NCBI RefSeq assembly: GCF_011492945.1
Contig: NZ_CP045119.1
Location: forward strand, 1,302,001 to 1,366,000
Length of the DNA: 64,000 nt
DNA from: Rubrobacter tropicus
GTDB taxonomy: Bacteria > Actinomycetota > Rubrobacteria > Rubrobacterales > Rubrobacteraceae
Direction: 5' to 3'
Position numbers and translations under genes: made by a program. The notes below the pieces were generated by a model. The model was not told the origin of the DNA. It searched no databases and worked only from the letters and a program-made list of their open reading frames with translations. Below, piece by piece: positions 5,844 to 56,632 of the stretch. Positions within the stretch are counted from its first letter, which is position 1. Each line of letters opens with the position of its first letter.

Positions 5844-7466
5844 GTGGCGCATAAGGAGCTAAGGTTCAATACCGAGGCGCGTCGGGCGCTGGAGGCGGGC
5901 GTCAACAAGCTCGCCGAGGCGGTCAAGATCACGCTCGGGCCGAAGGGTCAGTACGTGGTGCTCGACAAGAAGTTCGGCTCGCCGACCATCACCAACGACG
6001 GCGTAACGATCGCCAGGGAGATCGAGCTCGAGGACATCTTCGAGAACCAGGGCGCCCAGCTCGTCAAGGAAGTCGCCACCAAGACCAACGACGTCGCGGG
6101 CGACGGGACGACCACGGCCACCGTGCTCGCCCAGACCATCGTGCGCGAGGGCCTCAAGAACGTCGCCGCCGGCGCCAACCCGGTCATCCTCCGGGCGGGC
6201 ATCGACAAGGCCGTAGCCGTCGCCGTCGAGGCCGTCAAGAACCAGTCGCAGGAGATCTCGGGTCGCGATGAGATCTCGCGGGTCGGCGCGATTTCCGCCC
6301 GCTCGGACGAGATCGGCAACGTCATAGCCGACGCCATAGACAAGGTCGGCAAGGACGGCGTCGTGAACGTCGAGGAGGGCCAGACCTTCGGGATGGACCT
6401 CGAGTTCACCGAGGGTATGCAGTTCGACAAGGGCTACCTCTCCCCGTACTTCGTCACCGACCAGGAGCGCATGGAGGCCGTCCTCGACGACCCCTACGTC
6501 CTGATCGCCAACCAGAAGATCGGCAACGTCCAGGACGTGCTGCCGGTCCTCAACCAGGTGATGCAGTCCAACCGCCCGCTCCTCATAGTCTCCGAGGACG
6601 TCGAGGGCGAGGCTTTGGCCACCCTCATCGTCAACAAGCTGCGCGGCACCTTCAACGCGGCCGCGGTCAAGGCCCCCGGCTTCGGTGATCGGCGCAAGAG
6701 GATGCTCGAGGACATCGCCATCCTTACCGGTGGCGAGGTCATCACCGAGGAGCTCGGCCTCAAGCTCGAGAACACCCAGCTCAACCAGCTCGGCAGCGCG
6801 AGGCGCGTCGTCATCACCAAGGACAACACGGTCATCGTGGACGGCGCCGGTGACGTGGAGGCCATCAAGGGCCGCATCAACCAGATCCGCTCGGAGATAG
6901 AGTCCACCGACTCTGACTTCGACCGCGAGAAGCTGCAGGAGCGTCTGGCGAAGCTGGCCGGCGGTGTCGCCGTCATCAAGGTCGGCGCGGCCACCGAGAC
7001 GGAGCTCAAGGAGCGCAAGCACCGCGTCGAGGACGCCCTGTCCGCGACCCGGGCCGCCCTGGAAGAGGGCATCGTTCCCGGCGGTGGCGTGGCGCTGCTC
7101 AAGGCGCAGTCCCCGGTCGGCGACCTCGTGGAGCAGCTCGACGGCGACGAGAGGACCGGTGCCCGCATCGTGCATCGCGCCCTCGAGGAGCCGATCCGTC
7201 AGATCGCCTTCAACGCCGGCGCCGACGGCTCTATCGTCGTCGACAAGGTCCGCAACCAGGCCGACTCCCAGGGCTTCAACGCCCTGACCGGCGAGTACGA
7301 GGACCTGGTCCAGGCCGGCGTCATCGATCCTGCCATGGTCACCAGGAGCGCGTTGCAGAACGCCGCCTCCATCGGTTCGCTCATCGTCACCACCAACGTG
7401 GTCGTCGCCGAGCCCGAGGAGGACGCGCCCGCCATGCCCGCAGGCGGCATGGGCGGCATGATGTAA
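5844..7466 (+). CDS. groEL: Chaperonin GroEL (60 kDa)
   Basis: The 540-residue protein carries the standard GroEL features: [19 protein letters not shown] near the N-terminus, the ATPase segment [13 protein letters not shown], and the C-terminal GGMGGMM tail. It forms the double-ring folding chamber. GTG 5844 follows GAGGAGG with normal spacing and gives the family N-terminus (AHKELRFN). No groES precedes or follows it, so it is an isolated groEL copy of the kind common in Actinobacteria. Control is by the CIRCE/HrcA site and the promoter at 5733-5761; a terminator follows at 7491. Confidence 0.98.
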
Positions 7467-7490
7467 GGTTCCCAAACGGGAACACTTTCA

Positions 7491-7519
7491 GCGGCGCCCC
7501 TCCGGGGGCGCCGCTTTTT
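7491..7519 (+). terminator. Rho-independent terminator after groEL
   Basis: GCGGCGCCCC and its complement flank a three- to four-base loop and are followed directly by TTTTT. This is a textbook intrinsic terminator 24 bases after the groEL stop. Confidence 0.93.
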
Positions 7520-8064
7520 CGTTGCTCTTCTCCGCCGACCGGATCGCGTTTGGTTCCGGACTCGTCGTTGTCTTGGGCCGGTTCTTATTCGCCGTGCTGG
7601 GCTTCGTGCCCTAGAACGATTGTTGTCCGTTTCTGGCATTCACTGGTTGTTACTGTCCAGGATGCGCAAGCCTTCGGGCCTTGCACCAGATCACACGCGG
7701 CCACCTTGCGACAGCTTCGGGCTCGATCCCTTGCCGGCCTTATCGTTGCCGTTTGTGGGGTAATACTTCGCTTCCCACGCTGCACTTACCTTTCGGGGAC
7801 GGTCTCTTAGGACTCTCCACTTCCCGCCGGCGTTCATCTGGGCTCTGCCGGGAATCGTTGTCCTCTACTGGGCCCCGAGGAATGTGCCCCTCTACCCGTT
7901 CTTGTTGCTCGCCCCCTGATCCTACGGAACTCTCAGAGGTCTCAGGCGGGTTACGCGGCGTAACCATCCGAGTTTCGCCGGGGTCTCAAAGGGTATATAT
8001 TGGCGCTAGGCCGGTTACCGGGCGAGGGAGAAAGGGGAGAGAGATAGGCAGGGGACTTGGCATC
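7520..8064. other. Long intergenic region without a recognisable gene
   Basis: The stretch between the groEL terminator and the first small peptide is less GC-rich than its surroundings and its open frames show no domain, no repeat and no actinobacterial codon bias. It holds a perfect palindrome at 7950-7966 and a TATATT-like -10 candidate near 7996. I see no tRNA, rRNA or known RNA motif in it. Confidence 0.6.
7950..7966. promoter_or_regulatory. Perfect 17-base palindrome, candidate operator
   Basis: GGTTACGC, one central G, then GCGTAACC. It sits about 30 bases before a TATATT-like -10 (7996-8001) and about 100 bases before the three small-peptide genes, the usual position for a regulator binding site. 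The regulator is unknown. Confidence 0.5.
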
Positions 8065-8127
8065 ATGGTGGTTGTTCTGGTCGTAGTTCTGCTGATCGTG
8101 CTCGGTTTGCCGTTCATCGTAGGGTAG
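8065..8127 (+). CDS. Tiny hydrophobic peptide 1 (20 aa)
   Basis: An ATG-started frame of 20 residues, almost wholly Val/Leu/Ile (MVVVLVVVLLIVLG then LPFIVG), that could form one membrane helix. AGGCAGGGG lies about ten bases upstream. It is the first of three similar tiny frames in a row (gaps 27 and 41 bases). Evidence for translation is the ribosome site, the repeated design and the unusual bias to hydrophobic codons in otherwise non-coding DNA. Confidence 0.5.
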   Translation: MVVVLVVVLLIVLGLPFIVG

Positions 8128-8154
8128 GATTTTTCCGAACAGGGAGGTGAGGAC

Positions 8155-8235
8155 ATGCGGGGCGGGCTTATACCGATACTTGTGGTGATTATTCTGGTGA
8201 TCGTGGCCATACTGCTACTGTCGCGCCTTCTCTAA
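8155..8235 (+). CDS. Tiny hydrophobic peptide 2 (26 aa)
   Basis: The frame starts at ATG 8155 after a strong GGGAGGTGA site and encodes a short polar start (MRGG) followed by a single continuous hydrophobic segment (LIPILVVIILVIVAILLL) and a basic end (SRLL). This is a plausible one-helix membrane peptide. It lies in tandem with peptides 1 and 3. No family recognised. Confidence 0.6.
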   Translation: MRGGLIPILVVIILVIVAILLLSRLL

Positions 8236-8276
8236 TACCGGCTCACTGATCCGAGTAGGTATTTAGGGGAGGTATC

Positions 8277-8366
8277 TTGGGCGGCAACAACCTGGTAACC
8301 ATTATCGTGGTCGTCATAATCGTGGTGGTGATACTGGGCCTTCTGGGGTTCATACCGCTGTTCTGA
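8277..8366 (+). CDS. Tiny hydrophobic peptide 3 (29 aa)
   Basis: TTG 8277 follows GGGGAGGT. The 29-residue product has a short polar start (MGGNN), then one hydrophobic segment rich in Ile and Val, and ends GFIPLF. Design and spacing match peptides 1 and 2, and together they look like a small operon of membrane peptides. No function can be assigned. Confidence 0.55.
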   Translation: MGGNNLVTIIVVVIIVVVILGLLGFIPLF

Positions 8367-8448
8367 GTGCCCGGCCCGCTGCTTGACCGCCGCGCCGGTC
8401 GCGGTGTAGCATAAGCTGGATTTGCAGCGGTTGACGGAAAAGTTTATC

Positions 8449-8480
8449 GAGGCCCACGGGGAACCTGCCCCGTGGGCCTC
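8449..8480 (+). other. Strong hairpin in the guaB3 leader
   Basis: Thirteen-base perfect arms (8449-8461 and 8468-8480) with a six-base loop. It can end transcripts of the small-peptide genes or act as an attenuator in the guaB3 leader. A weak promoter pair TTGCAG (8422-8427) and TATCGA (8445-8450), 17 bases apart, would start transcription close to the hairpin. There is no clear U-run, so termination is not certain. Confidence 0.5.
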
Positions 8481-8524
8481 GTCTTGCTTGCCTTCGAAGA
8501 GCGGAAAGGAGCCCTGTTTTCCTT

Positions 8525-9685
8525 ATGGATATTGAGATAGGACGCGGAAAGACGGCCCGCCGGGCGTACGGACTCGATGAGATCGCCATAGTGCCGAGCC
8601 GGAGGACCCGCGACCCCGAAGACATAGACATCTCCTGGTCTTTGGGGGACCTGCGCCTGGACCTGCCGTGCCTGGCCTCGGCGCTCGACGCGGCCGTGGA
8701 CCCTGCGACGGCAGGCATGATCGGGGACCTCGGCGGCCTCGCCGTCCTCAACCTCGAAGGCCTCCAGACGCGCTACGAGGACCCGGGCCCGGTCTTCGAG
8801 GAGATAGCGAGCCTGCCGGAGCACAAGGCCACCCGCGTCATGCAGGAGCTCTACACCGAGCCCATCAAGGAAGAGCTGATCTTCCGCCGCGTCCAGGAGA
8901 TAAAGGACCGCGGCGTCATAGCCGCCGCATCCCTGACCCCCCAGCGGGTCGAGCGCTACCACCGGGCGGCCATAGAAGCCGGGCTGGACGTGCTGGTCAT
9001 TCAGGGCACCGTCGTCTCCGCCGAGCACGTCTCCCGCACGGTCGAGCCCCTGAATCTCATGGAGTTCGTGCCGGCCTTGAACGTGCCCGTGATAGTGGGC
9101 GGGTGCGCGAGCTACTCGACGGCGCTGCACCTCATGCGGACCGGGGCCGTGGGCGTGCTCGTCGGGGTCGGCCCCGGCAGGATCTGCACGACCCGGGGCG
9201 TCATAGGGGTCGGGGTGCCGCAGGCGACCGCCGTCTCGGACGCCGCCGCAGCACGGATGCGCCACTACCTGGAGACCGGCGAGTACGTCAACGTCATAGC
9301 CGACGGCGGGATGCGGACCGGGGGAGAGATCGCCAAGGCCATAACCTGCGGCGCCGACGCCGTCATGCTCGGCAGCGCTTTTGCGAAAGCGGAAGAGGCG
9401 CCGGGCCGGGGTTACTCCTGGGGGATGGCGACGTTCCATCCCACGCTGCCGCGCGGGACGCGCATCCAGACCAAGATCACGGGCACCATAGAGGAGATCC
9501 TGGTGGGACCCGCCCGCGAGAACGACGGGACCCTCAACCTCATGGGCGCCCTCAAGATGAGCATGGCGACCACCGGCTACCAGAACATAAAGGAGTTCCA
9601 GAAGGCCGAGGTGATGTTCGCGCCCTCGCTCGCGACGGAGGGAAAGGCCGAGCAGTCCGCCCAGCGCGTCGGGATGGGCAAGTAA
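8525..9685 (+). CDS. guaB3: GuaB3 family IMP dehydrogenase-related protein
   Basis: The 386-residue protein has the IMPDH/GMP reductase barrel without CBS domains, as in the GuaB3 family widespread in Actinobacteria. Visible are the nucleotide-binding glycine-rich loop and catalytic cysteine segment [20 protein letters not shown], and the phosphate-binding segment [17 protein letters not shown] followed by [12 protein letters not shown]. The enzyme is expected to act on IMP or GMP in guanine nucleotide supply. It is followed after three bases by guaA, which makes the next step of GMP synthesis, supporting an IMP dehydrogenase role. Start ATG 8525. Confidence 0.92.
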
Positions 9686-56471: not shown

Positions 56472-56490
56472 CCAGTCGATGCGGTTCCGA

Positions 56491-56597
56491 CTCATCTCTC
56501 GGAGTATCCTCCGCGGGAGTTGGCACCTGCCACGGGGCTTTTACCCCGCCGGTCGCCGCGGCTTCAAAGGGCCCATCCCTCCACCGCTCTCGATGAG
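56491..56597 (-). ncRNA. SAM-I riboswitch (S-box)
   Basis: Read on the minus strand the element starts with CTCATCGAGAG, then GGTGGAGGGA, GGCCC, TGAAGCC, later GGTGCCAACTCC, and closes with GAGAGATGAG. P1 is CTCATC paired with GATGAG; the kink-turn and SAM-binding cores match the S-box consensus. It senses S-adenosylmethionine and turns off the downstream methionine genes when SAM is high. It ends about 70 bases before the start codon. Confidence 0.93.
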
Positions 56598-56632
56598 CGT
56601 CCGGGCCGGCAGTGCCAACCCCAGACCCACGA

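Follow-up and report, generated by a model that had tools for sequence, protein, structure and literature searches.

A conserved candidate unit of stress-associated single-helix peptide genes between groEL and guaB3 in the Rubrobacteraceae

Tiny stress-induced membrane proteins are widespread, and their function is mostly obscure. Listeria Lmo0937, which represents a small membrane protein family, is longer than the peptides described here. Its expression is SigB-dependent (PMC7690807), as we propose for our locus, and none of the NCBIfam models of the Lmo0937 family matched the peptides. Another Listeria protein, Prli42, is a single-pass mini-protein linked to the SigB response; in contrast to the sORF peptides, which carry one arginine, it binds RsbR through a basic tail (K4, K5, R8) (PMC6614362). 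The toxins IbsC and ShoB, of 19 and 26 aa, likewise consist of one hydrophobic helix (PMC8309996), but an antisense RNA antitoxin pairs with them, whereas no minus-strand sigma-70-like promoter was found at the sORFs in a consensus scan of 7440-8560. The nearest functional comparison would be YohP of E. coli, a protein of 27 aa that lowers the membrane potential and silences metabolism, and that shares with the sORF peptides its size, its single transmembrane helix and a tie to starvation, stationary phase and stress (PMC12719787). YohP differs in being a single gene from another phylum with no SigB, and the comparison is one of size, helix and stress link.

The DNA analyzed here, referred to as the window, is a 64-kb stretch of a Rubrobacteraceae genome whose guaB3-based relatives include Rubrobacter marinus and R. 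taiwanensis. Three short frames (sORF1 to sORF3) lie between the end of groEL at 7466 and the start of guaB3 at 8525. The earlier note had described them as three frames with their own ribosome sites (ATG 8065-8127, ATG 8155-8235 and TTG 8277-8366), and Shine-Dalgarno sequences indeed precede all three. Among the ORFs of 18-40 aa on both strands of the whole 64 kb, the three sORF loci alone reach a mean hydropathy of 3.0 or more over 18 residues. The hydrophobic moments of their helices are low (0.15-0.49), and the helices are therefore plain hydrophobic rather than amphipathic. With fewer than 30 residues each, these tiny genes are of a kind that annotation pipelines would overlook. The features of the region are as follows.

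7540-7920: a decayed zinc-ribbon CD225 gene and a decayed DUF2752 gene, recognized from intact copies in relatives
7972..7996, + strand: SigB-type promoter, with -35 GTTTCG at 7972-7977, a 13-nt spacer and -10 GGGTAT at 7991-7996
8044..8127, + strand: sORF1 in its probable 27-aa form, IGRGLGIMVVVLVVVLLIVLGLPFIVG, with an AUA start, the initiator presumably read as fMet
8143..8150, + strand: sORF2 Shine-Dalgarno sequence GGAGGTGA, conserved in a nine-genome alignment
8155..8235, + strand: sORF2, MRGGLIPILVVIILVIVAILLLSRLL, 26 aa, predicted single transmembrane helix
8266..8273, + strand: sORF3 Shine-Dalgarno sequence GGGGAGGT, read from the sequence, GGGAGGT being kept within the genus
8277..8366, + strand: sORF3, TTG start, MGGNNLVTIIVVVIIVVVILGLLGFIPLF, 29 aa, predicted single transmembrane helix
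8383..8412, + strand: guaB3 sigma-70-type promoter TTGACC-N18-TAGCAT, outside the sORF unit
8448..8481, + strand: guaB3-leader hairpin with a 13-pair stem and covariation in 16 genomes, one of them without sORFs

On comparative evidence, the three sORFs are conserved coding genes. Most of the loci upstream of guaB3 that were read in 29 Rubrobacteraceae genomes hold one to three short frames, each with a ribosome site, and the DNA separating the sORFs has diverged among loci, though the frames and ribosome sites persist. The differences within the frames are concentrated at third codon positions. A lack of conservation in relatives had been named as the outcome that would speak against the three frames; the comparison was run and found them conserved, with a synonymous bias. 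Profile A1, built from 28 family peptides, matches 32 of the 39 Rubrobacteraceae genomes, in 12 of the 13 genera, the lone match in g12 being marginal and partial, and the peptides are mostly located between groEL and guaB3. In a sample of the phylum beyond the Rubrobacteraceae, the profile matches seven genomes marginally and partially (E 0.001-0.07), with the N-terminal motif missing, and a relationship of these matches to the family is unproven. Loci differ in which peptides they encode and in how many, from one to three, and the sORFs are absent at the guaB3 locus from G019 (g12) and from three g2 species whose loci were read, which argues that the peptides are dispensable.

A profile search found no further copies in the genome of the window. 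Some genomes carry unlinked single peptides of the MRGG type or related to it (L075, L076, L078, L080, L087); no SigB-type motif was found before the six unlinked copies examined. One of them (L080, apparently also L087) adjoins a PRC-barrel-like gene, as judged by reading the sequence. The second copy in G028 (L079, about 970-1056) has a frame shift after MRGGT and, by its sequence, is a decaying paralog. Orphan tiny helices were also seen in other Actinomycetota, one with a good ribosome site (MLRTVITVLIVVILVIVLLRLL; L093, 986-1055) and one on a reverse strand (MNIVTILVIVLLVLAILYFARRV; L074, 984-1056); kinship of either to the sORF family is unproven.

The strictest conservation was observed in sORF2 (pN/pS 0.195; third-position excess, column-shuffle P 0.0002). 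Its peptide is identical in G000, G025 and G013, which represent two genera, despite 11-16 synonymous changes, and a constraint on hydrophobicity only would predict 9-13 hydrophobic swaps within this trio. Between G000 and G025, which belong to different genera, there are 16 synonymous and 0 nonsynonymous differences; no swap among V, I, L, M, F and A was observed, compared with about 13 expected under the same constraint, and sORF2 is therefore constrained beyond bulk hydrophobicity. A constraint at the level of single residues suggests a specific surface for packing. For sORF3, pN/pS is 0.28 and the third-position excess has P 0.0002 (four genomes, column shuffle), and its start in relatives is ATG or GTG. 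The body of sORF1 is under weaker constraint (pN/pS 0.55) and accepts many hydrophobic swaps.

The 20-residue frame proposed earlier for sORF1 (8065-8127) stands, but its start probably lies not at ATG 8065 but seven codons upstream, at ATA 8044. These codons (ATA GGC AGG GGA CTT GGC ATC) vary mainly at third positions across nine genomes (column-shuffle P 0.002), follow a purine-rich ribosome site, and encode (I/M)-(G/S/D)-(R/K)-x-L, which resembles the MGKG, MGRG and MRGG starts at other loci. In G002, GTA replaces the equivalent of ATG 8065 and an in-frame TGA stands directly upstream of ATA, so that AUG, GUG and UUG are unavailable before mid-helix. Because of the third-position bias in the seven codons and the lack of another start in G002, sORF1 probably begins at the near-cognate AUA and has 27 residues. 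The corresponding codon is ATG in G014 and AUC in G004. In Staphylococcus aureus, infC and ccpN are started at AUA with the help of extended SD sequences, at about 10-30% output (PMC13009471).

Upstream of sORF1, the -10 candidate of the earlier note proved to be the GGGTAT box of a conserved SigB-type promoter. The Bacillus subtilis SigB consensus is GTTTAA-N15(+/-2)-GGGTAT, with spacers of N12-N17 considered (PMC9847131); the promoter agrees with this B. subtilis consensus at 10 of 12 positions, and its N13 spacer falls within that range. An element with N13 or N14 was found at 27 of 32 loci, in 11 genera, no more than 150 nt ahead of the first sORF, compared with a mean of 0.16 expected by chance from dinucleotide shuffles; the pattern counted was GTTT-N15/16-GGG[AT]A[TCA]. 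This count is partly circular, as the motif was defined on a subset of loci and then counted on all, and some first-sORF positions used for it were assigned by eye. The other five loci show CTTTCG or GTATCG variants, N15 spacing or a slightly more distant motif. The element reads GTTTCG-N13-GGGTAT in R. marinus (G030) and GTTTAA-N14-GGGTAA in G016 and G027; across genera the boxes and their spacing are retained, whereas the intervening sequence has diverged.

The NCBIfam cut-off for a SigBFG sigma factor (TIGR02980) is exceeded in G000 and in 33 of 39 genomes. Genome-wide, G000 shows no enrichment of the loose motif (32 sites, compared with 30 in a reversed control), and a search for an autoregulation motif found no SigB-type motif within 1.5 kb of sigB. 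The link to SigB therefore rests on resemblance and conservation, from which we infer that SigB may recognize the sORF promoter. At four other G000 sites (L230, L217, L219 and L033), a SigB-type motif stands 40-58 nt before genes for DJ-1/PfpI, ferritin-like, BON-domain and weakly phasin-like proteins, the first three being stress-type genes; these sites are a possible seed of a Rubrobacter SigB regulon.

The description of the region as otherwise without genes does not hold for 7540-7920, which contains degraded CD225 and DUF2752 genes; G003, G005 and G011 (L005, L004, L029) keep intact versions of both in the interval from groEL to the sORFs, the Pfam identification having been made on the G003 copies. 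The upstream palindrome (7949-7965), which the earlier note had pointed out, is not conserved even among sister species of the genus, and a role as an operator was rejected. The downstream hairpin had been pointed out likewise. It lies behind the promoter of guaB3, the sole sigma-70-like site detected in 7440-8560 by a consensus scan, and this promoter is conserved, including in genomes without sORFs. The arms of the hairpin (GCCCACGG and CCGTGGGC) carry compensatory changes at 7 of 13 pairs (window and L003-L031). Since it follows guaB3's conserved promoter and is kept where the sORFs are absent, the hairpin is an element of guaB3, and its reading as a terminator of the peptide operon was rejected. 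It may be an attenuator, or an RNA element of an unknown kind, serving guanine nucleotide synthesis, and an Rfam search returned no match for it; the single Rfam match of the window is a SAM riboswitch (RF00162) at 56489-56599 on the minus strand.

Searches of the window peptides against Pfam, PHROGs and PADLOC gave no match at or above threshold, and NCBIfam and PDB sequences yielded no family for them. Weak matches to bacteriocin, SecE and SVM-signal models were rejected, as they fell far under the cut-offs. Five of the 28 family peptides weakly match NF041949 (Thivi_2564 family membrane protein; best E 8.7e-5), and two singly scanned peptides align with its C-terminal half. Membership was rejected at 17.5-17.9 bits for singly scanned members against a cut-off of 33, the model found nothing in the genome of the window, and the resemblance likely reflects shared helix composition. 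A search of the literature on Rubrobacter small membrane proteins found nothing relevant.

The earlier reading of the locus as a small-peptide operon of membrane peptides is well backed by frame conservation, synonymous bias and the SigB-type promoter. The best fit among the roles suggested for it is to stress peptides or to regulators of a membrane complex. A type I toxin set is weaker, given the strictness of sORF2 and a consensus scan of 7440-8560 that showed no sigma-70-like promoter on the antisense strand. We consider it somewhat probable that the locus is a three-gene unit of stress-induced single-helix peptides acting on a specific membrane partner or on themselves. In such a scheme, a dedicated transcription unit of three genes would lie between groEL and guaB3, and SigB-type RNA polymerase, activated under stress, would initiate just after 7996. 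The single mRNA would yield three predicted single-pass peptides, 27, 26 and 29 residues long, each from its own ribosome site, with the near-cognate AUA start keeping the output of sORF1 low. Under stress, the peptides may enter the cytoplasmic membrane and pack helix to helix with specific partners, either another membrane protein or the peptides themselves, and a membrane activity would thereby be damped or stabilized. For these peptides, we infer both the insertion into the membrane and the engagement of a specific partner.

Other explanations have to be weighed against this one. Leader peptides of ilv genes are rich in Val, Ile and Leu, and the sORFs resemble them in this respect; attenuation through these codons is nevertheless rejected, as V, I and L interchange among relatives, which is incompatible with codon-specific attenuation, and the downstream gene, guaB3, has a promoter and leader of its own. 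Chance frames in a non-coding element would not display the coding constraint visible in the synonymous bias, and either version of this explanation is highly improbable. Type I toxin loci typically carry tandem copies, as does the present locus. A set of Ibs- or ShoB-like toxins, each silenced by an antisense RNA, would also account for the peptides' length and hydrophobicity, which match those of these membrane-depolarizing helices (PMC8309996). We regard it as unlikely: beside the minus-strand scan described above, the peptides share a stress-type promoter, have separate good ribosome sites and are inherited vertically at one locus, and frame-shifted IbsC remains toxic (PMC7192591), so that exact residue conservation is unexpected for such a toxin.

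Two further alternatives keep the link to stress. Prli42-like anchors would hold the stressosome at the membrane and act back on SigB, and the frequent MRGG N-terminus recalls the basic cytosolic N-terminus through which single-pass Prli42 binds RsbR (PMC6614362); this is very unlikely, since the peptides have at most one N-terminal Arg against three basic residues important in Prli42, a genome search found no RsbRD_N (PF14361) protein, and SigB persists in genomes without the peptides. A YohP-like bulk effect, in which stress-induced peptides without a dedicated partner dimerize, fill the bilayer non-specifically, lower its potential and fluidity and quiet metabolism, is doubtful. In size, single helix and stress-type promoter the peptides fit YohP (PMC12719787), copy number varies freely, a single peptide is enough in G016 and G027, and sORF1 tolerates many hydrophobic swaps; against it, sORF2 is kept residue by residue, beyond hydrophobicity.

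The unit would thus belong to a known kind, stress-induced single-helix mini-proteins, and its tandem, lineage-wide SigB-type arrangement and probable AUA start would be new. The Rubrobacteraceae include highly radiation- and desiccation-resistant bacteria. Tentatively, the locus may be an undescribed, lineage-specific multi-peptide stress arm, in which one SigB-type transcript encodes up to three different single-helix peptides, the first of them AUA-metered, each peptide has its own membrane partner, and the peptide ratio would tune the membrane under desiccation, heat or radiation stress. sORF1 is a probable instance of a conserved AUA start codon beyond infC. The sORF loci form a lineage-wide natural series of one to three peptides, with clear orthologs, residue-level constraint and a stress-type promoter, and this series offers a testable handle on the binding targets of such helices.
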